A DNA stretch of 64,000 nucleotides from an uncultured Clostridia bacterium (GTDB taxonomy: Bacteria; Bacillota; Clostridia; Oscillospirales; Oscillospiraceae), in the NCBI GenBank assembly GCA_945949735.1, contig CAMFFO010000002.1, positions 1 to 64,000 on the forward strand, read 5' to 3'. The notes beneath the pieces are model-generated. The model searched no databases. It was not told where the DNA came from and was given only the letters and a program-made list of their open reading frames with translations. The translations under genes were made by a program, and so were the position numbers. Below are positions 13,366 to 43,113 of this stretch, piece after piece (the first letter of the stretch is position 1; every line of letters starts with the position of its first letter).

Positions 13366-14226
13366 TTATCGGGGGATTTCCGCTAACTGCTCCACGATTC
13401 TCTCAATCATGGTTCCAACGTACTGTGCGTTAAAATCCATTGCGAAGTAATTCATACCAAGGCGTTCCTGGATTTGCACGGAATCCTGAAACAGATTGGA
13501 CAGGGAAGAATTACCGGCGTTGGACAGCTTCCGTTTGTAATCCTCGGCCTGCTCCGCAAGCTCCTGGAACATTCCTATGACGGTCTCCATATTTTCCGCG
13601 TTCGGATCATATGCCTCAAGGTTTTTCAGGGCGTCGCGGGTCAGCTGGGAGCATTCATCAAATCCTTCGATTGCCTCATCAATCTTATCCCGAAGCAGCA
13701 CATCCAGAATCGCGTGGGAGAATTTGTCCATCGCTTCGTGGTAAATCTCTTTGTTGTTCAGTATGGCGCGGACGAACGGCTCATAGCCTTCGTATTCCTT
13801 CAGACTGACGACCAGCTCCGCGTACTCCAGCTCCGGGCACAGTTCCACCGTGACCCCTGCCTGCTGTGCGGCGTTCAGGGCTTGCTCGTAGGCGGTGATC
13901 AACTCCGTGTCCACAATCGGATCAACGGCGTAATCCTCGGCCAGATAGGTATAGGGATGATCCCGGAAGAAGGTCAGATAGTCGTCGACAGCCTTCAGAA
14001 GGTCATATTCCGCCCGCGCGCTGACCAGCACATCGTAATTTGTCACCTTTTCCTTATTTTTGTCGGAAAGAGCGTTGTAAGCCTCTTCCGCTTCGACGAT
14101 CTGCGCCTCGCTCCCGAGGGATACCGTCCCGATAGCGTCTATCAGCGCAACGGTCTTTTTGGGAGTAGCGCAGCCGCAAAGCGTACAGCAAATCAGCGCG
14201 CAGATCAAAAACAGCTTCCATTTCAT
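13366..14226 (-). CDS. Putative lipoprotein with helical repeat-like N-terminus
   Basis: The 286-residue protein starts with a signal peptide and lipobox ending LCGC, Cys19 being the expected lipidation site. It continues with IDAIGTVSLGSEAQIVEAEE, a short helical module seen in many clostridial surface proteins, then about 200 residues of predicted helix with little Cys. It should be anchored on the outer face of the membrane. No enzymatic motif is seen. GGAGAGG precedes the start. It belongs to the accessory minus-strand run between two zinc-finger genes. Confidence 0.72.
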   Translation of the reverse strand: MKWKLFLICALICCTLCGCATPKKTVALIDAIGTVSLGSEAQIVEAEEAYNALSDKNKEKVTNYDVLVSARAEYDLLKAVDDYLTFFRDHPYTYLAEDYAVDPIVDTELITAYEQALNAAQQAGVTVELCPELEYAELVVSLKEYEGYEPFVRAILNNKEIYHEAMDKFSHAILDVLLRDKIDEAIEGFDECSQLTRDALKNLEAYDPNAENMETVIGMFQELAEQAEDYKRKLSNAGNSSLSNLFQDSVQIQERLGMNYFAMDFNAQYVGTMIERIVEQLAEIPR

Positions 14227-14393: not shown

Positions 14394-15590
14394 TCAGGAT
14401 CTTCGGTAAAGCGTATAGGTCGCGCCGTCCTGGTAGTTATAGACTTCCAGCGTGTTTGGGCCTGTCAGCGTCAGCTCCATCACATTTGCCGAAATACTGC
14501 CTGTGTCATTGGTCCATACCAGAGTCGTGTCCCAGATGGCCCAGTAGATAGTCCCAATGGGCTTGGAAACCATGGAAATATTGGACGACATATAGAAGCT
14601 GCTCCAGGAATCCGGATCGTTCACGGTGAAGCTTATGTATTTGCCATAGTTCGAATCCCACCAGGTGCCAACCATCCATGCGTATTTACAGCCGCTGCTG
14701 GTGATTATGTTTTGCCCGAGACTCGTAAACCAGAGCTTTTCCAGCGCTTCCCTGTGCTCTTTCACAAACAGCGACGGCGCGGCGGTGTTGTACTCCGAGA
14801 ACAGCAGCTCCAGTTCCTCCCGGAACGGATAGCGGCCCTCCGTGAGCATCTCCATCAGGATCTGCCGCACGGTAAAATCATCGCTGTTCCAGCTGCCGCT
14901 GGCGGAATACAGCGGCTTGCTGCACAGCATACTGTATAGATCCGCGCTTTGCACCCGGGTCAGCTGAACCACAGAGCGCAGCTGCTTTGCCTGGGCAACA
15001 TCGGGATTTTTCAGTGTCTCTGTCAGGCAGCTTTTGATCGCCTTCCACGCGCTGTCCTTCGCGCCCGGATAGTCTTTCAGAAGGTTAAACTGCCGATAGG
15101 CGTCAATATATTGGCGCTGGGTCAGAAGATGGGTTCCGTAATCAAATCGAATTTCTGATTTCAGCGCCTGGGCGGCGGGGTCGGAGGAGGCTTTCTGCAG
15201 GAGCGCCAGCGCCTGGTTGTATTGCCCCTCCCCCGCCAGGCTTTCCGCCCAGCCCAACAGGGACGCAAGCTCCTTCTCACGGCTGTCGCGATAGGTTTCC
15301 ATGGAGGAAAAAGCGTCGTAAGCCAGGGCGTACTCTCCGCGCTCCAGCAGCGAGCAGGCGTTGAGGTATGCGCTGTAGCGGGGCCACAGGGCAAGCGCCG
15401 CGCACAGCGCAGCCAGAACGGCAGCGCAGAGAATCCACAACAGAATACGCCTTTTCCGGGAGGTGTCCCGAACCGGGCGGGAAAAGCCGCAGACAATGCA
15501 GACATCGCCTGCGTTCCGGGTTTCGCAATCCGGGCAGACCCATTCCGCATGACAGCTCCGGCGGCTGTTTTCACGGTATTCGCTTTCCAA
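14394..15590 (-). CDS. RanBP2-type zinc finger / transmembrane / extracellular helical-repeat protein
   Basis: The 398-residue protein begins with a zinc finger WVCPDCETRNAGDVCIVCGF at about 17-36, similar to RanBP2-type fingers (WxCxxC...N...CxxC). A single transmembrane helix follows (about 50-69, LLWILCAAVLAALCAALALW), then a helical region at about 75-220 with TPR-like repeats (ERGEYALAYDAFSSM, GEGQYNQALALLQKA, TQRQYIDAYRQFN). The C-terminal part is beta-rich (DDFTVRQILMEMLTEGRYPF, GTIYWAIWDTTLVW). The start appears to be TTG at 15590, with GAGGA 8 nt upstream. It is 41 nt after the DUF975 gene. It probably senses or scaffolds at the membrane; function unknown. Confidence 0.68.
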   Translation of the reverse strand: MESEYRENSRRSCHAEWVCPDCETRNAGDVCIVCGFSRPVRDTSRKRRILLWILCAAVLAALCAALALWPRYSAYLNACSLLERGEYALAYDAFSSMETYRDSREKELASLLGWAESLAGEGQYNQALALLQKASSDPAAQALKSEIRFDYGTHLLTQRQYIDAYRQFNLLKDYPGAKDSAWKAIKSCLTETLKNPDVAQAKQLRSVVQLTRVQSADLYSMLCSKPLYSASGSWNSDDFTVRQILMEMLTEGRYPFREELELLFSEYNTAAPSLFVKEHREALEKLWFTSLGQNIITSSGCKYAWMVGTWWDSNYGKYISFTVNDPDSWSSFYMSSNISMVSKPIGTIYWAIWDTTLVWTNDTGSISANVMELTLTGPNTLEVYNYQDGATYTLYRRS

Positions 15591-15631: not shown

Positions 15632-16504
15632 TTACAGCTCCGGAGGGGGCGAAAAGCTGCTTTTTGAGTCCCCTTCGGAAGTGGGCGTCCGAACGTCGCC
15701 CAAAACGTCATGGTACTCCTCTGTGTCGCGACCAATGTAATCATCCTCCGTGCGCGGCTTTCGTAACTCGTCGTAGAAGCCTGCCCATACCGTATCGTAG
15801 AGCGCGAAATAATACATCAGGCCTACGAGGTTGAAGGAAAGAAGATTCAGGACGTCCCATCCTAAAAATTTCATTCTCCGGACAAACATCTCCATTTTAT
15901 GTCCGTGAGTCAGTTCTGCGGAGCATTTCAGCGCATCCTCCGCGGAGATCCCGGGATTGTCATAGAGAACATAGGGCGCAAGCATATAGCTGAACTGTTT
16001 GACATAGCCGAACACGGGCACCAGCATCCACAGGCCGATACGCAGCTTGATCCAGAACATACCGGCCATGGTTCTGCCATAGTCATGCATACCCTCAAAA
16101 AGGGTGGCAACGTTAAGATCCTCATCCCGGTACAGGTGCAATCCGGCAATGTGTTCGCCATATTCAAAAATGTTGCCCAGAAAGATCTTATAAATGGCTT
16201 CGGCAATCAGGACGCCTCCCAGCGCAAACATGAGACCGAAAAGCCAGCCGATCAGGAAGGAAAGTACCCAGTTCACCAGCCAGACCACAATGAAAAAGGG
16301 AATCGTCTCTCCAATCCGAAGCACAGCTGCTTTGTGGGCCTGATGGAGGAGCTTGTCCTCGGGCACCAGCCCGGTTTTTCGGGTGGTTTTACGCATGGGC
16401 CGCTCCCTGCCGCATACGCGGCAGCTGCTTCCGGTGTTGATTGTCTCACATCTGGGGCATTTCCAACCTTTGGGGACACCTGTGTGTCTTGTTATAGACG
16501 GCAT
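15632..16504 (-). CDS. DUF975-family membrane protein with N-terminal zinc finger
   Basis: The 290-residue protein carries a zinc finger at about 14-33 (WKCPRCETINTGSSCRVCGR) like that of its neighbour, then a DUF975-type integral membrane region with about five helices. It keeps the family segment YMLAPYVLYDNPGISAEDAL followed by SAELTHGHKMEMFVRRMKFLGW. DUF975 proteins have no known biochemical role. The finger is not part of the usual family and is shared with the next gene, suggesting that these proteins act together. GGAGGAAGAAAA precedes the ATG. Confidence 0.75.
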   Translation of the reverse strand: MPSITRHTGVPKGWKCPRCETINTGSSCRVCGRERPMRKTTRKTGLVPEDKLLHQAHKAAVLRIGETIPFFIVVWLVNWVLSFLIGWLFGLMFALGGVLIAEAIYKIFLGNIFEYGEHIAGLHLYRDEDLNVATLFEGMHDYGRTMAGMFWIKLRIGLWMLVPVFGYVKQFSYMLAPYVLYDNPGISAEDALKCSAELTHGHKMEMFVRRMKFLGWDVLNLLSFNLVGLMYYFALYDTVWAGFYDELRKPRTEDDYIGRDTEEYHDVLGDVRTPTSEGDSKSSFSPPPEL

Positions 16505-16552: not shown

Positions 16553-17143
16553 CTATTCCCTTGCCGGTTCTGTTTCCGCGTCCGTGGAGGGCGGTGTTTC
16601 CTCTGCCTCCGGGAGGGAGGCTTCCGCCTCTGTGGGAACCTCCGGTACCGGTTCCCACTGGGCATAGAGCGTCAGTGGTTCCCACAACGGAAGGTCAAAG
16701 GGATCCCCCGGATTGACGCCCATTCCGTTTCCCTCCGGCTTGGTATTCCAGCCTGTGAATCGCCAGCTTCCGGTATCCTGCAGGGTGGGAACCGTCTGCC
16801 CCCGGGAGATGGACGGGACATCCGCCCCCTGTTCGTCCGGAAGGTTCCGGTCAAAGCACACTGTGTACACCGGAGCCTTTGCGGCGGAAGTCGCCGCGCG
16901 CAGCTGCCTGAGCTGAAGGACACCGAGGATTTCGAGCGCACAGGTGATCACCGCGACGACGAGAATCACGGCCAGCAGCCCGGACGAGGAAGCGGGATTT
17001 TTGGGGCGGGCGACCGAATGCTCATCGATCCCGGGAATTTTGCCCGGGCGGCTGCAGGTGCGGCTTATAAACTCTGTCTGCCGGTGGCAATACCGACAGG
17101 TCTCTCCCGTGTCTGTTTTCCTGCCGCAGTGCGGACAAATCAT
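16553..17143 (-). CDS. Zinc-ribbon / transmembrane / InlB B-repeat-like protein
   Basis: The 196-residue protein has a cytoplasmic zinc ribbon (MICPHCGRKTDTGETCRYCH, 1-20), a basic linker, one transmembrane helix (about 55-76, LLAVILVVAVITCALEILGV) and an outer domain at about 90-165. The outer domain carries the Listeria-Bacteroides repeat pattern (VCFDRNLPD, TGWNTKPEGNGMGV, TLYAQWEPVPE). It ends in an acidic Pro/Glu-rich tail. InlB B-repeats are adhesion or spacer modules. It is first in the minus-strand accessory run, 48 nt upstream of the DUF975 gene. Confidence 0.7.
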   Translation of the reverse strand: MICPHCGRKTDTGETCRYCHRQTEFISRTCSRPGKIPGIDEHSVARPKNPASSSGLLAVILVVAVITCALEILGVLQLRQLRAATSAAKAPVYTVCFDRNLPDEQGADVPSISRGQTVPTLQDTGSWRFTGWNTKPEGNGMGVNPGDPFDLPLWEPLTLYAQWEPVPEVPTEAEASLPEAEETPPSTDAETEPARE

Positions 17144-17539: not shown

Positions 17540-18274
17540 CTAATAGAGCGTGGGATACTCTTCACTGATCAATTCGGTGCAGTAGCCGCAGTAGGCGCTG
17601 TGCAGGGCATCGGAAAAGGTGCTGCCCACGGGGATCTCGCAGCCGTTGATCATCTGAATATGGGAGGGGCACAGCATATGAATGTTTTGCAGGTTCACAT
17701 AATAGCTGCGATGGCACTGGGCGAAAACAGTGGTGCCGCTCTGCTCCAGAAGATCTTTTGGGGACTGATAGGTTTCAAAGGAATAGGTTTGGGTCACCAC
17801 AAGGGTTTTCCGAAGATTCTTTTCCATGTACAGGATCTGGGAGCAGGGGATGATCCGGTGCTCCCGTCCTGCAATCAGATGGACGTAACGCTCGCGTTTG
17901 CGCTCCAGAGAGGCGACCAGACGGTTGATCACGGTGATCAGATGCAGGGGCACCAGATCCTTGGGCAGCAGGACACTGTGGGACAGCCGGTACATTTCCG
18001 GAACCACATTGTTTTCTTCACTTAACAGGATCGCCATGCAGTGCGGATTCTCGGCCCGTACCTTCAGAATGATATCCACGCCGCATTCGTGTTCCAGATT
18101 CTGGGATATGATTAGGATGTCGAAGGATTCCGTGTTGGTGCAGACGTCCTCCACCAGCCAGCCGGGCTTGCAGTAGGTCACAATCAGACTTTCCCGGGTG
18201 CATTCGATCTGACGCACCAGACCGGTGAGCCACTGAACGTATCTCCAATCGCTGTCGCAAATTCCGATTCGCAT
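17540..18274 (-). CDS. LytTR-type response regulator with degenerate receiver
   Basis: The 244-residue protein has an N-terminal receiver-like domain (MRIGICDSDWRYVQWL, 1-120) and a C-terminal LytTR DNA-binding domain (about 135-240, with YMEKNLRKTLVVT, CHRSYYVNLQNI, GCEIPVGSTFSDAL). The acidic pair near the N-terminus is kept (D7, D9). The phosphoacceptor position in FDILIISQNL reads Ser57 where Asp is expected. Either the receiver is regulated without phosphorylation or it is pseudo-receiver type. No histidine kinase is adjacent. GGGAGGGATTCC precedes the ATG at 18274. It is oriented away from the vWA cassette. Confidence 0.82.
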   Translation of the reverse strand: MRIGICDSDWRYVQWLTGLVRQIECTRESLIVTYCKPGWLVEDVCTNTESFDILIISQNLEHECGVDIILKVRAENPHCMAILLSEENNVVPEMYRLSHSVLLPKDLVPLHLITVINRLVASLERKRERYVHLIAGREHRIIPCSQILYMEKNLRKTLVVTQTYSFETYQSPKDLLEQSGTTVFAQCHRSYYVNLQNIHMLCPSHIQMINGCEIPVGSTFSDALHSAYCGYCTELISEEYPTLY

Positions 18275-18430
18275 GGAATCCCTCCCTCCCGGGCGCATCC
18301 CGTCCCATAAATATGCCGCGACGACAGAAACAAAAAATGATCGCGTGGTAATCATTATTTTACTACGGAAGAACGATCAATTCAAAGAAGAAAGCATAAC
18401 TTGCAGCTTATTTGTCATAATTTGCATACT

Positions 18431-18846: not shown

Positions 18847-19605
18847 ATGATTATGAATCAGGGAAGCTATTCATACGCCAGCCGGGACGATGGACAGGGA
18901 AGCTACAAGGTGCAGTTTTCTTATAATGTGGATCTGGTGTTGTGCATCGACGGCACCAAAAGCATGGAGCCGGTCATTCAGATGGTGAAGGAGAACGCGA
19001 AAAGGCTTCCGGACGATATCCTGCGGGAGGCGGCGGAGAAGAACAAGCGGATCAACAGCCTGCGCATCAGGATCATCGTTTTCCGGGATTACCGGGAGGA
19101 CGGGGTGCACGCCATCGAAACCACGGATTTTCTGAACATGCCGGAGCAGAAGGATGCTTTCTGCAGCGCGGTAAATTCCATCGAGGCAATCGGCGGAGGG
19201 GACGAGCCGGAGGATGGCCTGGAGGCGCTGGCCTATGCCATGGCATCCAAATGGCGGTGGCCCTCGGGAGGTCAGAAGTGCCGCCAGATCATTGTGGTCT
19301 GGACCGACGCATCCACCCATAAGATCGGTTACGGAAGCGCCGCGCCGAATTATGACCCCAAGATGCCAAAGGATTTTGCGGAACTGACGCAGTGGTGGGG
19401 AGATGAGCAGGACAATCCCAAGGCAAAAATGCATTATTCCTCCAAACGGCTGCTGCTGTTCGCTCCGGATGCCAAATTCTGGAGCACCATCAGCGAGAAC
19501 TGGGATAATGTGATCCCTGTTAAGACCATTGCCGGACAGGGAATGCGGGAACGGGATTACGACGAAGTGCTGGAGCTGCTGGTCAATACCCTAACTGTAA
19601 ATTGA
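18847..19605 (+). CDS. TerY-like von Willebrand factor A domain protein
   Basis: The 252-residue protein is one vWA domain. The metal-ion-dependent adhesion site is seen as DLVLCIDGTKSM (D35-G-T37-K-S39), and QIIVVWTDASTH carries a further site residue. vWA proteins of this kind (TerY-like) pair with a PP2C phosphatase and a Ser/Thr kinase in Ter-linked gene triads. Here exactly those two genes follow. A cytoplasmic location is likely since no signal peptide is seen. The MIMNQG start could be ATG 18847 or ATG 18853. It probably presents a client or metal to the kinase and phosphatase, which is inference from the family. Confidence 0.82.
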   Translation: MIMNQGSYSYASRDDGQGSYKVQFSYNVDLVLCIDGTKSMEPVIQMVKENAKRLPDDILREAAEKNKRINSLRIRIIVFRDYREDGVHAIETTDFLNMPEQKDAFCSAVNSIEAIGGGDEPEDGLEALAYAMASKWRWPSGGQKCRQIIVVWTDASTHKIGYGSAAPNYDPKMPKDFAELTQWWGDEQDNPKAKMHYSSKRLLLFAPDAKFWSTISENWDNVIPVKTIAGQGMRERDYDEVLELLVNTLTVN

Positions 19606-19632
19606 TCTCTTTCGGAACTGCTGAGGATTCGT

Positions 19633-20604
19633 ATGGGCATCATCACATTCACACTGAGCGTCTGTGAGGAAAAGCGCGCCCAAAAAGGGGAGGACGCGCC
19701 TCTCAGACTGACCTATGGCGAACGGGCCGGAATGATCGCCTGCATGGACGGCTGCGGCGGCAGCGGCGCCCGCAGATATCCCCAGTTCGGAGACTGGACC
19801 GGTGCAAGGATTTCCGCACGGCTTATCGGCAACACGCTGGCGGATTGGTTCCAGGCCGGGGGCATGGACGCCCGGGGAACCGGAGACGCAGCGCCGGAGG
19901 CTTTGGCGGGTCAGCTTCAGTCGCTGCTTTCCAGCCGCCTGAAGGAAGTCAAGGCGCAGATTTCTCCGGAGGATACGGCATTTTCCGGCCGCATGAGCAA
20001 GACCCTGCCGTCTACCCTGGCTGCCGTGCTGGTGGAGGCGGCGGGGAGGAACCGCTGCCGGATCTGCTCGTTCTGGGCAGGAGATTCCAGAACCTATTTT
20101 TTCCCGGCATCCGGACTTCGTCAGACAAGCCGGGATGATATTCGGGGAGGGGCGGATCCCTTTGACAGCCTGATCGGGGACGGGATCCTTTCCAACGTGG
20201 TCAGCGCCGATTCGGACTTCCGAATCAACTGGGCGGAGACCTTTTCCCTGGAACCCTGTATGGTGCTGACTGCCACGGACGGCTGCTTCTCCTATTTCCC
20301 TTCGCCCATGCATCTGGAAGAGCTGCTCCTGGATACGCTGATCAGTGCGCAAACGCCGCTGGACTGGGAGAATGCCCTGAGGGAGGAAATCGGTGCGGTG
20401 GCGGGAGATGACTATACGCTTCAGCTTGCTGTGGTCGGTTTCTCCAACTTCCGGGCGCTGCAAACCGCGTATACGCCCCGCCGGGAGTATTTCAGAACCC
20501 GTTTCACCCAACCGCTCTGTCAGATCCTGAAGGAGAATGACCTTGCGGGACATCGTGCCCTTTGGATGGCTTATAAACAGGATTACATGGCGGAGGAAGC
20601 GTGA
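19633..20604 (+). CDS. PP2C-like protein phosphatase
   Basis: The 323-residue protein carries PP2C motifs in order: MIACMDGCGGSG (metal-binding Asp39), KTLPSTLAAVLVE, FWAGDSRTYFF (GDSR), VLTATDGCFSYF (TDG) and GDDYTLQLAVVGF (second metal Asp pair). It should be a metal-dependent Ser/Thr phosphatase opposing the kinase encoded next. Length is near that of stand-alone PP2C with a C-terminal extension of about 50 residues (RREYFRTRFTQPLCQ onward) of unknown role. It follows the vWA gene by 27 nt and nearly abuts the kinase gene. Confidence 0.86.
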   Translation: MGIITFTLSVCEEKRAQKGEDAPLRLTYGERAGMIACMDGCGGSGARRYPQFGDWTGARISARLIGNTLADWFQAGGMDARGTGDAAPEALAGQLQSLLSSRLKEVKAQISPEDTAFSGRMSKTLPSTLAAVLVEAAGRNRCRICSFWAGDSRTYFFPASGLRQTSRDDIRGGADPFDSLIGDGILSNVVSADSDFRINWAETFSLEPCMVLTATDGCFSYFPSPMHLEELLLDTLISAQTPLDWENALREEIGAVAGDDYTLQLAVVGFSNFRALQTAYTPRREYFRTRFTQPLCQILKENDLAGHRALWMAYKQDYMAEEA

Positions 20605-20606
20605 GA

Positions 20607-21530
20607 ATGAAAGCAGGTATCAACGGCCTGGAAAGGATCAACGGCTATCAGCTGACTGCTCCCTGGACAACCAGCGGCAGCGCACAGTGGAGCTTCGCGG
20701 AAAAAGGCGGCAGCGAGTGGTTCATCAAGCGCTTCCTGGCCCCGAAGCGAAAGCGCGCGGAGGACGGTATTCCCCAAAGTACAGTGGATACCGCCAACGC
20801 CCGCTGCGACGCCTTTGAAAAAGCCCGGCAGGAGCTGTACCGCAGGATTCGGGAAGCCGATAACGGGAATATTGTTTTTGTGTCGGACTTCTTCTGTTAT
20901 GGTTCCAGCTATTACGCGGTGAGTCCCCGGATTCCCGCCGCAGGACTTAGCGTGAAGGGCATTGCGGAGCAGCCCCAGGAGAAGAGAATTCTCCTGATGA
21001 AGATTCTGACCTACTGCGTTCAGAGCCTCCACGACCACGGTGTTGTCCACGGAGATCTGAAGCCGGCAAACATTATCCTCAAGCGCACGGCAACCGGGGG
21101 CTTTACGTTGAAGCTGATTGATTTTGACGCGGGCTTCCTGGAAGAGGAGCCCCGCAGCGGGGATCGGATCTCCTTTGACACCGTGTATGCTGCGCCGGAA
21201 ACCCTGCTGGCGTTGGAGGATGATTCCATCCGGCTGACGAATAAGATCGATATTTTCGCCCTGGGGCTGATTTTCCACGAATATGCCTGCGGCAGGCAGC
21301 CCTCGCTTCCAATGGACTGCCCCTCGGCGGTTTACGCGGTGTTAAACGGAGAAGTTCCCCAACTCAACGGGGATCTGCCGGGATGGCTGCGGCAGCTGAT
21401 TGCCAGGATGCTTCTGCCTGATCCAGCCCAGCGGCCGGATGCGCAGACGGTATTCCGGAGGCTGCAGGAGCAGAACGCACCGGGCATGGAAAACGGAAAC
21501 AGTTTCTTTCACAGACCGAACCCGCTGTAG
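20607..21530 (+). CDS. Serine/threonine protein kinase of the vWA-PP2C triad
   Basis: The 307-residue protein has the eukaryotic-type kinase core. The ATP lysine is probably K41 in EWFIKRFLAP. The catalytic loop is VVHGDLKPANIIL (D150, N155), the DFG position reads DFDAG (172-176), the activation segment ends in AAPETLL (APE 196-198), and NKIDIFALGLIFHEYACG is the helix F segment. The glycine-rich loop is poor (TTSGSAQW), and DFD for DFG is unusual but known in divergent kinases. No transmembrane or PASTA segment is present, so it is soluble. ATG 20607 sits 10 nt after GGAGG; GTG 20601 would overlap the phosphatase stop. It completes the TerY-type triad. Confidence 0.86.
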   Translation: MKAGINGLERINGYQLTAPWTTSGSAQWSFAEKGGSEWFIKRFLAPKRKRAEDGIPQSTVDTANARCDAFEKARQELYRRIREADNGNIVFVSDFFCYGSSYYAVSPRIPAAGLSVKGIAEQPQEKRILLMKILTYCVQSLHDHGVVHGDLKPANIILKRTATGGFTLKLIDFDAGFLEEEPRSGDRISFDTVYAAPETLLALEDDSIRLTNKIDIFALGLIFHEYACGRQPSLPMDCPSAVYAVLNGEVPQLNGDLPGWLRQLIARMLLPDPAQRPDAQTVFRRLQEQNAPGMENGNSFFHRPNPL

Positions 21531-21556
21531 GACGGGATTACGACCGACCTGTGTCC

Positions 21557-22402
21557 ATGAACTATCAGCGGGAATCATCGGTTCACAAAGATAGTTACCG
21601 GGGAGACCAGGTGCTTGGGCGGGCCGAGTGGTTCCTTGACGTGCTGAACCGGGTGAACGGGAACCGGAACGGGAGGAATCTGCTCTGGAAGGCTGCGGCG
21701 TCCGCGCCTGTGGGCTTCTGCCATATCACCTCGGGCGTTCTGGGGACGCTGCTGGAGGGTATTATGGACGGCCTGAACCTGGACAGAATCCAGCGCCGGT
21801 TTGCACGGCTTGAAGAAATAGAGACGCGCTGGAAAGCACCCGCTCCTGCAGACCACGAGGGCGGCGTTTTTGCCGGAGTGCCCACCAGAACTGCAAAATC
21901 CAAAAGCGATGACCTGACGTCCAGGGTGAATATGACCTGGGTGAAATTCCGCGACACGGTGCTGCCCCGTGCCACAAAAATAGAATTCCAGGTGAGGCAG
22001 GGAAAGGACAATTTCTGTGCCATCGTTACCGCGGAGGATCCCGATGCGCCTCCCATCATCCAGTGGGACAGCCCGCAGCGGCGCAATCCTTTCAGCCTCT
22101 ATGTTTACAGAGGGGGATCTACGCCCGATCTCTGGGGGCTGACGCCCGGATACTGTAAGGTGACGGCGGTCACCCTGCAGCCGACTATGTGGCAGCCAGG
22201 TTTTGAACACAAGGGGAAATCGGTGATCTTTCTTCTGGAGGGCTGTCGGGATCACCGGGAGTCGGGTCTGGCTTTGTTCCCGGAGATTCTGAGAAGTGAG
22301 CTTCATGAGGTTCGTGCCACCATTGAGGCTTACTCCAATAGTCATGTTCTGTCCGGAGCCGAGGAAGCCTCCGCCTGCGGACTGGTTCGCAATGACAGAT
22401 AG
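21557..22402 (+). CDS. Unknown protein, fourth gene of the kinase cassette, 3' end derived from a repeat
   Basis: The 281-residue protein has no family I can name. After a helical N-terminus (about 20-95), a distinct region at about 120-240 includes TWVKFRDTVLPRATKIEF, APPIIQWDSPQRRNPFSL, YVYRGGSTPDLWGLTPGY and PTMWQPGF. The Trp/Pro-rich, conserved-looking pattern suggests a folded domain. It lies 26 nt after the kinase gene on the same strand. The last residues (ACGLVRNDR) are encoded by a fragment of repeat A, so the original C-terminus was probably lost or replaced. The start is set at ATG 21557; its ribosome site is weak. Possibly a substrate or effector of the kinase, which is inference. 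Confidence 0.6.
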   Translation: MNYQRESSVHKDSYRGDQVLGRAEWFLDVLNRVNGNRNGRNLLWKAAASAPVGFCHITSGVLGTLLEGIMDGLNLDRIQRRFARLEEIETRWKAPAPADHEGGVFAGVPTRTAKSKSDDLTSRVNMTWVKFRDTVLPRATKIEFQVRQGKDNFCAIVTAEDPDAPPIIQWDSPQRRNPFSLYVYRGGSTPDLWGLTPGYCKVTAVTLQPTMWQPGFEHKGKSVIFLLEGCRDHRESGLALFPEILRSELHEVRATIEAYSNSHVLSGAEEASACGLVRNDR

Positions 22403-22430
22403 TTTTGGACGCAAAGCGACAAACACCAAT
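22376..22430. repeat. Family A repeat fragment, copy A5
   Basis: TGCGGACTGGTTCGCAATGA matches the right arm of copies A2 and A8, and AGCGACAAACACCAATTTTT matches the A-type right end. Only the right half is present. It overlaps the last codons and stop of the fourth cassette gene. Confidence 0.75.
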
Positions 22431-22462
22431 TTTCCATGCTGCGGAAAACCGGAGAACGAAAT

Positions 22463-22526: not shown

Positions 22527-24764
22527 TCAAACGGAATAGGGTTCCCAATTGAGAATGGTTTCCCGGAGGCCGGGAAGATCCAGAACGCCCAGGGCGAAGC
22601 CCTTGCGTACCAGCTCCTCGGGGAGGTATTCGTCATACTTATCAAAGAGGGGCAGCTCCTTCGGGTACACCAGCTCCAGGGGGTCAATGGGCTTTCGGAT
22701 CTCCTCCAGCAGCACCCGGAAGAAGGTGCGCGCGTCGGCCTTCATGGTGAACTGCATATAGTAGGGCCGGGCGGAGTCCAGATTCCGCAGGCCCAGACGC
22801 TCCCCGCATTTGATTTTCAGGAACCGCTCCATGGCGAGAAAGGTATAGGTTCCCACCCAGGGGAGCAGACACCACATGGTGCCGCCCAGGTTGATGAGGG
22901 GCTCTTTTGCCGCGCCGGAGTGGGCGGCGGTGAAGCGGGCCTGCTCCAACCGGGCCACAGCGTTTTTCATCAGGTAGGGGTAGCTCCGCTCCTCCTGGAG
23001 CACTTTGCGCATCCGCTGGAGAATTTTGGTATGGAGGTCTCCGGGGCACTGGCCAAAGTAGGCGGGGATGCTGCCCCGCACCTGCTCACAGTAGACCAGG
23101 TGCCGCTTGTGATCCACATCCAGCACCAACCAGACATGGCCCGCGATGGCCAATTTCTCCCCGACAGGAGGCGGCAGTACTACGGTTCCCAGCTCCTGGG
23201 AGTCACAGCGGACGGTGTACTCCTCATTCTCCTGGAACACACCGTAGAATTTGAAGGAGTTCACCACCCGCTCCCCGGCGAGGCCCACGATCAGGCCGCC
23301 CTGGTCGGTGGTCTGGATGTGGTCTGTGGAGATCAGGTGCCGCAGAAGAACCTTGTAATCCTCCTGACTGATCCGGCGGAAGTAGGAAAGACGCAGCACC
23401 CGGTCGGCCAGGGCCCGGGGGGACAGCTCCCCACAGGAGGCCAGGGTGGACATGGTCTGGTGGTAGAGCAGGCTGTAGGGAAGCCGGTCCAGGCGGGGCG
23501 GCTCCACCCAGCGCTCCTCCAGGTACAGCTGCACCAGGGCGATGCCCTGCAGCAGCTTCCAGGGGATGGTGGAGGGGAGCATGGCCCGCATCTCCGGCTC
23601 GTCCTCGCGCATGACGAACCACATCTCCGGGGGCTGCTCCCGCCGGCCGGTACGGCCCATCCGCTGCAGGAAGGAGGACACCGTCCAGGGAGCGTCGATC
23701 TGGAAGGCCCGTTCCAGCCGTCCGATGTCGATGCCCAGCTCCAGGGTTGCAGTGGTCACGGTGGTCATATACTGGGAGTCGTCCTTCATGATTCCCTCGG
23801 CGGTCTCCCGGAAGGAGGCGGAGAGATTGCCGTGATGAATCAGGAACCGATCAGGCTCGTGGTTGCGCTCGCAATACTGCCGCAGGGTGGTAGTGACGGT
23901 TTCGCACTCCTCCCGGGAGTTGACGAATACCAGGCATTTTTTCCCGCGGGTGTGCTCGAAGATATAGCCCAGTCCCGGGTCGGCGTTGGCGGGGGCCTGG
24001 TCGGTTTTTTCCTCCAGTACGCTCAGCGCCTCAATGTCCGTCCGATCCTCGCCGGCCTGGACATCCTTCACATAGAAGTGCTCCATGCTCAGCCGCCAGC
24101 GGCTGCCCTTGGCCTCGATTTTGGGGATGATGGTTTTCCGTCCGGTGCCCAGGGCCAGGAATTCTCCCGTGCCCTCCGGGTCGCCGATGGTGGCGGAGAG
24201 GCCGATGCGCCGGGGGCTGACGCCCGCCAGCCGGGAGAGCCGCTCAATGAGGCACAGGGTCTGCCCGCCCCGATCCCCCCGGAGCAGGGAGTGGACTTCG
24301 TCGATGACCACGAACCGCAGATCCCCAAAGAGCCTCGGGATGGCGGCGTGCTTATGCAGCAGCATAGCCTCCAGGGATTCCGGGGTGATCTGGAGAATGC
24401 CGGAGGGGTGCTTCATCAGCTTTTCCTTGTGGCTCTGGGCCACGTCCCCGTGCCAGTGCCAGACGGGAATGCCCGCCGCCGCGCACAGGTCGTTGAGGCG
24501 GGAGAACTGGTCGTTGATCAGCGCTTTCAGGGGCCCAATGTAGATGCAGCCGATGGAGGCAGGAGGATCCTCGGAAAACAGGGTGATGATGGGAAAGAAC
24601 GCGGCCTCGGTCTTTCCGGAGGCGGTGGAGGCGGTGAGCAGCACATGGTCGTCGGTATTGAAAATGGCCTCCCCCGCGGCCACCTGGATGGCACGCAGGT
24701 TTTCCCAATGGTTGCGGTAGATATACTCCTGAACAAAGGGCGCGTAACGGTCAAAGGTTCCCAT
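22527..24764 (-). CDS. Lhr-like DEAD/DEAH-box helicase
   Basis: The 745-residue superfamily 2 helicase has Walker A TASTASGKTEA (about 45), GPLKALINDQFSRL, Walker B FVVIDEVHSLL (DEVH), SATIGD motif III, then helicase lobe 2 with CLVFVNSREECE, TTATLELGIDIG and QRMGRTGR. The C-terminal 300 residues are a helicase accessory region without a recognised nuclease. It uses ATP to move on nucleic acid. It is the downstream member of a TerB / BrxD-like ATPase / helicase set, separated from the ATPase gene by 446 bp that hold repeats B1 and A6. Lhr-like helicases also serve in BREX systems, but no BREX methylase or PglZ is here. Confidence 0.88.
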   Translation of the reverse strand: MGTFDRYAPFVQEYIYRNHWENLRAIQVAAGEAIFNTDDHVLLTASTASGKTEAAFFPIITLFSEDPPASIGCIYIGPLKALINDQFSRLNDLCAAAGIPVWHWHGDVAQSHKEKLMKHPSGILQITPESLEAMLLHKHAAIPRLFGDLRFVVIDEVHSLLRGDRGGQTLCLIERLSRLAGVSPRRIGLSATIGDPEGTGEFLALGTGRKTIIPKIEAKGSRWRLSMEHFYVKDVQAGEDRTDIEALSVLEEKTDQAPANADPGLGYIFEHTRGKKCLVFVNSREECETVTTTLRQYCERNHEPDRFLIHHGNLSASFRETAEGIMKDDSQYMTTVTTATLELGIDIGRLERAFQIDAPWTVSSFLQRMGRTGRREQPPEMWFVMREDEPEMRAMLPSTIPWKLLQGIALVQLYLEERWVEPPRLDRLPYSLLYHQTMSTLASCGELSPRALADRVLRLSYFRRISQEDYKVLLRHLISTDHIQTTDQGGLIVGLAGERVVNSFKFYGVFQENEEYTVRCDSQELGTVVLPPPVGEKLAIAGHVWLVLDVDHKRHLVYCEQVRGSIPAYFGQCPGDLHTKILQRMRKVLQEERSYPYLMKNAVARLEQARFTAAHSGAAKEPLINLGGTMWCLLPWVGTYTFLAMERFLKIKCGERLGLRNLDSARPYYMQFTMKADARTFFRVLLEEIRKPIDPLELVYPKELPLFDKYDEYLPEELVRKGFALGVLDLPGLRETILNWEPYSV

Positions 24765-24810
24765 AGATTACCTCGAAAAAGGATATAGAGAATAACGTTG
24801 CGGGAAGGAG

Positions 24811-24985
24811 AATTGCTGTTTACGGTTTTCAAGCACCTTACGTTGCCACCGTAGGGGCGGATATTATCCGCCCGAATCGTTCCGGTTTTTGAGCATTTCC
24901 GGTGAATGTGCGTGCTATCCATGCGGTAAGGTTGCGGGCGGATAATATCCGCCCCTACGGTGATAGTGCTGTAAACAACAATTTA
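24811..24985. repeat. Family B palindromic repeat, copy B1
   Basis: AATTGCTGTTTACGGTTTTC left end and GCTGTAAACAACAATTTAC right end. The inner arms TAGGGGCGGATATTATCCGCC and inverse GGCGGATAATATCCGCCCC (each written here within 21 bases) form hairpins. It differs from the other B copies by a few bases only. It separates the helicase and ATPase genes. Confidence 0.9.
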
Positions 24986-25052
24986 CAATGCGAATCAATA
25001 GTTGAAACAGGCAATAAACGTCAGAAAACGTGGTAAGCAGTTGAAAAAACGG

Positions 25053-25177
25053 TGTCATTGCGAACCAGTCCGCAGACTGGTGTGGCAATCCCCCCGTCCT
25101 TCCGGGTGCTTATCGACACGTTTTTCCTCTAACCGGGGGATTCCCACGCCAGTGTGCGCACTGGCTCGGAATGACAG
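25053..25177. repeat. Family A palindromic repeat, short copy A6
   Basis: TGTCATTGCGAACCAGTCCG left arm and CACTGGCTCGGAATGACAG right arm, with GTGGCAATCCCCCC and GGGGGATTCCCACGCC between. The terminal TTGTTGTTTA ends are not clear here. Confidence 0.75.
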
Positions 25178-25210
25178 CATGATTTTGGCATTTCAACTCT
25201 TGATTGGCAT

Positions 25211-26524
25211 TTACAGTTCAAACTCCGCGAAATTGGGGGAGGTTTCTTCCTCCTCCACGGCGTTCTGGGCGAAGGTAAAGCGGTCGCTGCCAAGAAGCTC
25301 CCGAACCTTCACGCCGGGGTTCTGGTACACAATGTCCAGCACCTGGATAAAGTCCCGGATCACCTCCCGGGGGGTGATGTGGGTGTCCGCGCCGATGCGG
25401 CCGAACTCAATCTGGATGAAGTCCACCATGTCGGGCTCCGTGACGATCTGGGGATACTCATACAGTCCCGCGTGGATGTCCGCCAGCTTCTCAATGAGAA
25501 TCAGCATTTCCTCATGGGTTAGGGGCTGCAGACGGATGACGGGGGAAAGCAGATCCTTGTGCTCTCCGGTGAAGTGGCCGTCAGCCAGCCGGGAGCGGAG
25601 GGCTTCGTAGCTGTAGACGCCCCGGCGGGGATCCTCCATGCACTGGGGGGTGCCGCAGAGGATGATGCCGAAGTGCTGGGCCTTGCCTTGCATGGTGTCG
25701 TTGTACATGGTGAGGATCTTCTCATAGTTATACTGCCGGGTGATGGCGTTGGGAATCTTGTAGATATTCACCAGCTCGTCGATGAGCACCAGCATTCCGG
25801 CGTAGCCCGCCTGCTTGAGGAAAGCGGCGAAGAGCTTCAGGTATTCGTACCAGTCGTCGTCGGTGATGACGATGTTCACCCCCAGCTCCTGCCGGGCTTC
25901 GGATTTGGTGGGGTATTCGCCCCGGAACCATTTGAGCACCTTGGCCTTCAGGGCATCGTCTCCATTGATATGGGCCTCATAATACAGGGTCAGCAGCCGG
26001 GCAAAGTCGAAACCGTGCACCATCTCGTTCAGGGAGTAGATCACCGCGGAGATGCGCTTTTCCACCAGCTTCGCAAGCCCCGGATCCGTGGCGCCAAGAC
26101 CGGAGGATACCATGACCTCCTGCTGGACGGAGCTGATCCAGCGATCCAGTATCAGCGACAGCGCGCCGCCCTCGGGCTTGGTTTTGGTGGACATATTCCG
26201 GATCAGTTCCTTGTAGGTGGCAAGGCCCTGGCCCCGGGTGCCCTGGAGCCTCCGCTCCGGGGACAGATCCGCGTCCACCACCACGAAATTCTTCGCCATG
26301 ACGTAATTGCGGATAGTCTGCAGCAGAAAGCTCTTGCCGCTGCCGTACTGACCTACGATGAAGCGGAAGGAGGCGCCGCCGTCGGCTACGATCTCCACAT
26401 CCCGCAGCAGGGCGTCAATTTCCTCCTTGCGCCCCACGGCCACATATTGAAGCCCCACCCGGGGCACCACGCCGCCCTTCAGAGAATTGATCAGAGCCTG
26501 GGCGATTCGTTTGGGTATTTTCAT
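25211..26524 (-). CDS. BrxD-like ATP-binding protein (DUF2791 family)
   Basis: The 437-residue protein has Walker A FIVGQYGSGKSFLLQ (about 57-70) and Walker B GMLVLIDELVNIYK. The opening MKIPKRIAQALINSLKGG is typical of the DUF2791 ATPase group that includes BrxD of BREX systems. It should be a soluble P-loop ATPase that remodels or loads a DNA-bound partner. Its start overlaps the TerB-domain gene stop by 4 bp (ATGA), so they are translationally coupled. The usual BREX partners (PglX, PglZ, BrxC) are absent; TerB-linked sets with this ATPase and an Lhr-like helicase are a separate known association. Confidence 0.82.
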   Translation of the reverse strand: MKIPKRIAQALINSLKGGVVPRVGLQYVAVGRKEEIDALLRDVEIVADGGASFRFIVGQYGSGKSFLLQTIRNYVMAKNFVVVDADLSPERRLQGTRGQGLATYKELIRNMSTKTKPEGGALSLILDRWISSVQQEVMVSSGLGATDPGLAKLVEKRISAVIYSLNEMVHGFDFARLLTLYYEAHINGDDALKAKVLKWFRGEYPTKSEARQELGVNIVITDDDWYEYLKLFAAFLKQAGYAGMLVLIDELVNIYKIPNAITRQYNYEKILTMYNDTMQGKAQHFGIILCGTPQCMEDPRRGVYSYEALRSRLADGHFTGEHKDLLSPVIRLQPLTHEEMLILIEKLADIHAGLYEYPQIVTEPDMVDFIQIEFGRIGADTHITPREVIRDFIQVLDIVYQNPGVKVRELLGSDRFTFAQNAVEEEETSPNFAEFEL

Positions 26525-27945
26525 GGGTGTACCATCTCTTTCAGTTCTTCAATATAGTCTCCCACCAGCTCCGGGCGGTCATTCATTTCCAGCACGGAGT
26601 CCGCGAAGGTATCGTAGAGCTTGTCGTTGATGCCGTCCACCAGAACGGAGAGCAGGTGCCCTTCGGACTGAACCCAGCTCAGATCCCCGCCGTAGAGCAG
26701 GCAGCGGAGCAGCCGATATTCCGCATCGTCCAGAGGCGTGTCCGCGGAGGGCTCCGGTGCGGGAGGCTCCGGGGCCTGGGGTTCCTCCGGCTCCAGCTCC
26801 TCCTCCACGGTCAGCTTGTCCCGGGTCAGGGCGGCGTCGGAGCGGATGGAGGACAGCTTGGAATAGTCAATGGTAATGACCTTCGCTTTGGCGGCCTCCT
26901 TTTGGGCAAGCAGCTTCTGAATCTCCTCGCGGATCAGCTTCAGGAGCCATTTGGTGTCCGTCTCACACTTGACCGGATGGCCATAGCCGTATTCCTGACG
27001 CATGAAGGAATCGATGGTTTTTACCAGTTGGTTCAACCTGGTGTTGGGGCGCTGGTGGATGTCCAGGCGGTAGAGGGTCCAGAAGCCGTTGCGGCACCGG
27101 TAGAGGGTATACCGGCTCAGACGGTATTCCCGGTCCCGGGATTTCTCCCGGTGGCAGAATACGGCGGTGGAGAAGGGGGCGGCGAACAGTTCCATAGGCT
27201 TGCCGAAATACTGCTGAATGAAGGTATTTTTGCGGTGGGCATAGTGGTCGGAGACCTTCCGGAGCACCCGGACAATGATCTCGTCCATGTCCTCCCGGTT
27301 CCCGGCGTAGAATTTCGAGCGATCAAGCCACTTGGTAAAGTACCGAACCGCCTCTATGACTTTTTCTTTTTCCTGGGTCTGCACGTCCTCCAGCATGGCA
27401 GCATAATTGTCAAAAACCATCTGGGGCAGGGCGGCAAGCAGCCCCGGATCCAGTTCGAAATAGGCTGCGTACTCATACAGCCACTGGTTCAGGTAGGGGA
27501 GAATCCTGTCGTCCAGGGAGCCGTAATCCTTGTGGAAGCGCAGCAGCTTCTCATAGCCGTCCAGAGGGTCTGTCACGCCGATCTGGTTGAGGAGCTCGTA
27601 GATGTAGAGAAACGCGAAGGACAGGGAGGTTTTCTGCAGGTTTCCCGCCCGGAGCTTCGTCCGCCAGGAAAAGTAGCCCCGCAGCTCCTGATCGGAGAGA
27701 GCCTGGTACGTGGGGTAATAGCAGGTCACGTTCTTGTCAAAGGGGTAATCATCGGAATAGAATTCCAGAAGCTTTGCCTGCTTGAGAAACAAAGCGCTGC
27801 GGGAATCCCGGGCGCCCGGGCCGCTTTCCAGGGAGCGGGCCGCCTGAAGCGCGGCGGGAAGGCGTTCCCTGGGCTGTTCGTTCCGGGGACGGATGGACTC
27901 CTCCCGGAATACGGTGGAGTAGAACCACTCGGCGGCTTTCTTCAT
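26521..27945 (-). CDS. TerB-N / TerB-C domain protein
   Basis: The 474-residue protein carries the TerB N-terminal region pattern (FLKQAKLLEFYSDDYPF, YYPTYQALSDQELRGYFSW, FLYIYELLNQIGV) at about 75-180 and a C-terminal TerB-C-like segment (about 395-470) after an acidic Pro/Glu linker (EPEEPQAPEPPAPEPS). TerB domains are helical and tied to metal sensing and membrane or DNA processing in Ter systems; the exact role is unknown. ATG 27945 is used; an in-frame GTG at 27969 is an alternative. It is the first gene of the trio with the ATPase and helicase. Confidence 0.82.
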   Translation of the reverse strand: MKKAAEWFYSTVFREESIRPRNEQPRERLPAALQAARSLESGPGARDSRSALFLKQAKLLEFYSDDYPFDKNVTCYYPTYQALSDQELRGYFSWRTKLRAGNLQKTSLSFAFLYIYELLNQIGVTDPLDGYEKLLRFHKDYGSLDDRILPYLNQWLYEYAAYFELDPGLLAALPQMVFDNYAAMLEDVQTQEKEKVIEAVRYFTKWLDRSKFYAGNREDMDEIIVRVLRKVSDHYAHRKNTFIQQYFGKPMELFAAPFSTAVFCHREKSRDREYRLSRYTLYRCRNGFWTLYRLDIHQRPNTRLNQLVKTIDSFMRQEYGYGHPVKCETDTKWLLKLIREEIQKLLAQKEAAKAKVITIDYSKLSSIRSDAALTRDKLTVEEELEPEEPQAPEPPAPEPSADTPLDDAEYRLLRCLLYGGDLSWVQSEGHLLSVLVDGINDKLYDTFADSVLEMNDRPELVGDYIEELKEMVHP

Positions 27946-28264
27946 TCGGTTGGTATCCGTGGCCCTCACCCCTCGGTCAAATGTTTGCTAATATCATACA
28001 CGATTGGAAGGAAACAGTCAAGGGGCGGTTGGGGATTCCTGGAAAGATCCTCTTAGGGGAGGAAAGACAAAGCCCCGGAACCAATCAGGTTCTGACCAGT
28101 GCTTGCGGTCTTAACCAGCTTCCCACTGCCAGTGTTCAGCTTGTTTGTGAAGCAGACGGTTCTCGCGGCACCTGCGGTCACAGCCATCGAATGCTGGTTT
28201 CCCATGACGGAGGAATTTGCGCGGAGGCATTCCCGGCCGGCATAAACGGAGTACCTTCACCGGG

Positions 28265-42860: not shown

Positions 42861-43113
42861 GATAAATTGGTGTTTGTCGCTTCACGTCCACGATTATCTG
42901 TCATTGCGAACCAGTCCGCTTAAGTGGTCGTGGCAATCCCCCGGTTGAAAGGAATCAGGTAACAATTACCGCCAAGAATTGCGGCGAAACTCACTTTTAC
43001 CGGTACTTTTCGGTACATTTCCCCTCTAAGTAAGGGGATTGCCACGACCAGTGTGCGCACTGGTCTCGCAATGACAGTATTTTTTCGGGTTCGCACTTGT
43101 AAACAACAATTTA
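42861..43113. repeat. Family A palindromic repeat, copy A7
   Basis: Left end AAATTGGTGTTTGTCGC, right end TTGTAAACAACAATTTAC; the two ends are of different variants. Interior arms CATTGCGAACCAGTC and TCTCGCAATGACAG. Fills the 338-bp gap before the SipL-like gene. Confidence 0.85.

Follow-up and report, generated by a model that had tools for sequence, protein, structure and literature searches.

A conserved vWA, phosphatase and kinase triad in a Clostridia genome and the apparent phage-gene relic that follows it

TerY-P systems (Anantharaman 2012, Gao 2020) have kinases with a C-terminal zinc ribbon or OB-fold, as described in PMC11090510, and TerY-P-like modules have been reported as stand-alone defense systems (PMC11090510). 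In actinobacteria, kinase, PP2C and vWA genes are linked in GAP1-N2 GTPase systems, for which peptide binding by the vWA protein has been suggested (PMC7159879). A third point of reference comes from animals: integrin alphaIIb-beta3 binds the C-terminus of fibrinogen gamma (KQAGDV), whose Asp sits at the integrin's metal ion (PMC4813479).

We analyzed a 64,000-nt stretch of DNA (contig CAMFFO010000002.1, positions 1 to 64,000, forward strand; hereafter the window) that contains a vWA gene, a PP2C gene and a kinase gene followed by a fourth open reading frame (ORF). Like TerY-P, this locus has a stand-alone vWA protein, a PP2C-like phosphatase and a Ser/Thr kinase encoded in one operon. In contrast to TerY-P, the kinase consists of a catalytic domain and a short tail, and zinc ribbons are found on separate membrane proteins.

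The triad and the neighboring Shango operon

We found four ORFs on the same strand, at 18847-19605, 19633-20604, 20607-21530 and 21557-22402, with intergenic gaps of 27, 2 and 26 nt, as an earlier note on this DNA had given. There are alternative GTG starts for the kinase at 20601, which would produce a 4-nt overlap with the PP2C stop codon, and for the fourth ORF at 21551. Sequences resembling ribosome-binding sites are upstream of the PP2C gene (GAGG) and the kinase gene (GGAGG). The catalytic motifs previously described are present in all three proteins: DGTKS in vWA; DGCGG, GDSR, TDG and GDD in PP2C; and HGDLKPAN, DFD and APE in the kinase.

The first gene (18847-19605, plus strand) encodes a vWA protein of 252 aa with a match to Pfam VWA_4 (2.1e-9), a match to Pfam Integrin_beta at 25.6 bits (cutoff 24.8), and an integrin beta-I-like fold as judged with Foldseek. 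The second (19633-20604, plus strand) encodes a PP2C-type phosphatase of 323 aa. It was identified by its metal-site motifs, which are invariant across an alignment with about 12-13 triad phosphatases; its match to Pfam PP2C_2 is weak and below threshold (0.0027). The third (20607-21530, plus strand) encodes a Ser/Thr protein kinase of about 307 aa (Pfam Pkinase, 1.9e-20).

These three genes form a triad, as had been noted, and the set is conserved. We took a census of triads by searching with PP2C and found 28 besides that of the window, across Clostridia and beyond. Triads were present in 14 of 391 genomes of the class (a count that includes the genome of the window). Within the genus, where 136 genomes were searched, eight others had triads, and so did five further genomes of the same order; one triad was on a Herpetosiphon plasmid and one on a gut-derived contig. 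Across the phylum, a search with PP2C mostly returned other PP2Cs with weak scores, and a scan of viral contigs with the triad PP2C gave no match.

The locus had been likened to TerY-P. The grouping of vWA, PP2C and kinase genes on which that comparison was based is correct, but the kinase does not have a C-terminal zinc ribbon or OB-fold: its domain stops at residue 285 of 309, with no CxxC pair beyond that point and no second Pfam domain. The vWA and PP2C proteins had no match in PADLOC even at E 10, although PADLOC v2 may contain no TerY models, and there was no annotated TerY among the matches when the vWA protein was compared by tblastn to 72,556 plasmid records. Because the kinase is without these domains, we conclude that this is not a canonical TerY-P system.

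A Shango operon adjoins the triad. SngA (26521-27969), SngB (25211-26524) and SngC (22527-24764), all on the minus strand, are present with full-length PADLOC matches (3.8e-67, 1.6e-192 and 1.1e-277, respectively). A MITE-like repeat is located at about 25053, between SngB and SngC. The Shango operon as a whole (22527-27969) is convergent to the triad, separate from it, and not part of it. One possibility is an anti-phage system of the TerY-P type that works with Shango. The same three enzyme classes are present, TerY-P-like modules are reported defense systems, and the adjoining set of SngA, SngB and SngC is complete. However, the kinase and the PADLOC and plasmid searches gave the results described above, and no other triad that we found adjoins Shango. 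We consider this combination unlikely, and an anti-phage function of the triad is unproven, its one line of support being the adjoining Shango operon.

The fourth ORF and the phage family PHROG 1735

The fourth gene had been described as unassignable and as a possible effector or target of the phospho-relay. We found that the fourth ORF (21557-22402, plus strand) had no match in Pfam, PADLOC or NCBIfam, and nothing significant in a PDB sequence search, in keeping with the first description. It was not confirmed as an intact component, but matched the phage family PHROG 1735 (phrog_1735, 2.3e-47), of which it appears to be a shortened relic. It can be aligned to the family over nearly its entire length, with identity up to 52%.

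We compared the fourth ORF by alignment with 103 other, full-length members of the family. Full-length members are about 530 aa (most at about 525-600 aa, with some reaching 735) and have an N-terminal CxxCR, a middle helical segment and a C-terminal DRWD, an architecture that the fourth ORF does not have. It retains two blocks that correspond to about residues 194-261 and 303-508 of L020, a full-length member from Oscillospiraceae. The N-terminal part of ~190 residues, which carries the CxxCR Zn motif, is absent. An internal helical segment of 41 residues is deleted, and the C-terminal strands that end in DRWD are also absent. It lacks 36 of the 76 columns with conservation of at least 90%; 39 of the 40 retained ones are unchanged. 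The missing pieces were not found elsewhere within the window, and there was no second copy of the ORF in the genome assembly (81.5% complete).

The 3' end of the ORF comes from a repeat. The window contains many copies of a MITE-like repeat of about 170-200 bp with inverted termini TGTCATTGCGA...GGCAATCCCC (at 134, 2241, 9911, 17318, 42901, 48093, 53009 and elsewhere). The end of one such repeat (22375-22432, no strand assigned) is fused to the fourth ORF and supplies its last residues and stop codon. Its terminus is identical to that of other copies, and 56 bp of this remnant match 42864-42919 at 91%.

Genes of PHROG 1735 (loci L002-L028, L060 and L063-L142) are widespread in phages, at times beside RtcB, ligases or NAD-salvage genes. 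A tblastn search with the fourth ORF gave matches in 72 phage records and nine plasmids, and a search with the family alignment gave 22 loci in bacteria and 117 viral contigs; the fourth ORF alone, as a single-fragment query, had no hits among either genomes or viral contigs. In a Rhizobium phage and in an Eleftheria plasmid, the gene comes after one for the RNA ligase RtcB; in two other records, ribonucleotide reductase, DNA ligase or PseT is encoded nearby. We also looked for a function through structure. The predicted structure of L020 (pLDDT 90.7) had no fold match in the PDB below E 0.77, and this approach to the fourth ORF was dropped.

None of the 28 other triads had the fourth gene; the contigs of L050, L054 and L056 end at or inside the set, and the downstream gene is unseen there. 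Likewise, none of 108 PHROG 1735 loci had a vWA or PP2C gene near the family member, and large kinases with weak matches were present at two of the 108. That is, homologs of the fourth gene are scattered without the triad, the outcome by which the earlier note would have its cassette idea fail. We therefore reject the proposal that this gene is the effector or target of the phospho-relay. The same two counts rule it out as a conserved member of a cassette.

Based on sequence, we read the fourth ORF as a phage gene that was shortened recently, has decayed, and is downstream of the triad by chance. We are confident that it is a relic standing outside the triad system. There is a small chance that the shortened form is still in use, because the deletions are in-frame and the retained core is well conserved. 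One form that this could take is a repurposed short phage protein that now serves the triad as an effector or decoy. The reading frame is open through 283 codons even though two internal segments have been lost, both in frame, the kept residues are well conserved, and the spacing to the kinase is close. In contrast, the ORF is missing from all 28 other triads, its 3' end derives from the repeat remnant, it is not preceded by a good ribosome-binding site, and both the part with the Zn motif and the C-terminal strands of the predicted fold are gone. We regard repurposing as very improbable. Reading the ORF as a relic corrects a tempting mis-assignment, in which what is left of a phage gene is taken for an effector.

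Zinc-ribbon membrane partners and a shared C-terminal tail

We found the closest relative of the triad in locus L147 (identity of 57% for vWA, 45% for PP2C and 54% for the kinase). In L147, the triad is in one operon with homologs of three genes of the window. In the window, the partner genes are on the minus strand, at 13.4-17.1 kb. They encode a zinc-ribbon/TM protein (16553-17143), a zinc-ribbon membrane protein with DUF975 (15632-16504; DUF975 1.3e-17) whose C-terminus is SSFSPPPEL and whose homolog is directly before vWA in L147, and a zinc-ribbon/TM/TPR-like protein (14394-15590). The last gene of the partner operon (13366-14226, minus strand) encodes a lipoprotein-like protein, as judged by its sequence and position only. 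A LytTR response-regulator-like gene (17540-18355, minus strand; LytTR 2.3e-14) also has a counterpart (5.6e-20) near the L147 operon. Many clostridial relatives have two small zinc-ribbon/TM proteins encoded 5' of vWA, and many have variable genes interposed between PP2C and the kinase.

Since the L147 operon contains the triad together with homologs of the partner genes, we take the system of the window to be the same one, except that here the membrane genes are encoded on the strand opposite to the triad. That is, gene content indicates that the true partners of the triad are the zinc-ribbon membrane proteins. The segment that holds the triad has a MITE-like repeat close to each end (17318 and 22375), and we infer an inversion.

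In the relatives, the kinase and several of the interposed membrane proteins end in a common tail, [WF]FxxAGDL-COOH or close variants. A wide version of this pattern, drawn with most tails already in view, fit 16 of 22 kinases and 13 of 143 other operon genes. It fit none of 1,562 other ORFs (0/166 outside genes and 0/1,396 background ORFs). A narrower pattern was fixed before five hold-out loci (L151-L155) were fetched, and three of the five had the tail: on the kinase in L151 and L152, and on an interposed protein in L153, where the kinase has none. L154 had a near match (FFRPGNL), and L155, from a distant branch, had no tail. TM segments were predicted in 12 of the 13 tailed partners. With the tail removed, several of these partners had no BLAST relatedness to each other that we could detect.

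In the window, the kinase has the C-terminus GNSFFHRPNPL, a drifted tail (FFHRPNPL) without the acidic residue, which is also absent from the kinase tails of L147 and L154. The DUF975 protein (FSPPPEL) was the sole fit to the wide pattern among 232 open segments of the window, and P was allowed at the relevant position of that pattern only after this tail had been seen. In addition, a contig filed as a bacteriophage from human feces (L062:1-2783) has the order PP2C-kinase-vWA and a kinase with the C-terminus KFKQAGSLF. We found no paper on the AGDL tail in the open-access literature.

The shared tail is quite probably a real interaction motif. Its presence on both kinase and membrane partner suggests how such sets may assemble.

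The vWA protein as a possible docking hub

The predicted model of the vWA protein (pLDDT 87.8) was compared to the PDB with Foldseek, and the top 50 matches were all integrin beta subunits (E about 1e-8). A vWA profile matched only integrin beta-8 among PDB sequences, and weakly (E 0.002). Single-sequence PDB searches found nothing, so the likeness to integrin is seen only through the profile and the fold. The MIDAS (D35-x-T37-x-S39), together with D119/P121/E122 and D154, is invariant in 19 homologs. We take D35, T37, S39, D119, P121, E122 and D154 to be beta-I-type metal residues, by correspondence to beta3. In one relative, an intact vWA copy has beside it another whose metal site is degraded (L048:8869-9573; IGCTGDM), a pairing that recalls the duplicated vWA genes of Type III-A CoCoNuTs.

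Given the integrin-like fold and metal site, and the precedent of KQAGDV, we propose that the vWA protein docks the tails. The triad would be a reversible phosphorylation switch tied to the zinc-ribbon membrane proteins, and vWA would be its intracellular docking hub, with a metal site like that of integrin beta-I. Tails, on linkers of the kinase and of the membrane partners, would bind this site through Asp/Glu. Docking would bring the kinase to its putative membrane substrates, and PP2C would undo the phosphorylation. We infer both the binding of the tail by vWA and the role of the partners as substrates. The whole of this explanation, in which switch, membrane partners and docking hub are joined with a relic downstream, is the one we favor, with moderate confidence.

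The individual steps are not equally secure. It may be that the vWA metal site is the receptor of the tail, a suggestion that we make tentatively. Triads without tails (L058, L059 and L061) share their vWA metal motif with the tailed ones, and thus tails cannot be predicted from the motif alone. It is also possible, if rather less than probable, that the tail is a signal for a different reader, such as PP2C, a protease, a chaperone or the kinase itself. The tail is confined to the kinase and partners, PP2C is no less invariant across these operons, and a terminal D-L could suit other proteins that read C-termini. However, vWA is the only component whose fold is known for binding such acidic C-terminal peptides.

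If vWA is the reader, there could be an intracellular integrin-like code in these clostridial operons. The beta-I-like vWA hub would bind the AGDL tail common to the kinase and to zinc-ribbon membrane proteins that are otherwise unalike, and any protein with the tail would be recruited to the kinase/phosphatase pair. We consider a code of this kind conceivable but somewhat doubtful. The phospho-switch itself apparently carries the recruitment tag, and a plain search for tails could reveal substrates.

The proposed system is like the GAP1-N2 systems (PMC7159879), in which a kinase with a zinc ribbon or TM helices is found beside PP2C and a stand-alone vWA protein. It is unlike them in that no GTPase or GAP1 was identified here, and in that there is a concrete candidate for the peptide, the shared tail. 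It is like integrin beta-I and fibrinogen gamma KQAGDV (PMC4813479) in having a vWA fold with a metal site and an acidic C-terminal peptide in which AGD is followed by a hydrophobic residue. In contrast to integrin, the vWA protein of the triad is cytoplasmic and bacterial, has no alpha subunit, and has about 15% sequence identity, and its binding to the tail is putative. If the tail does bind the vWA metal site, then the ligand chemistry by which platelets engage fibrinogen also operates inside bacterial cells.
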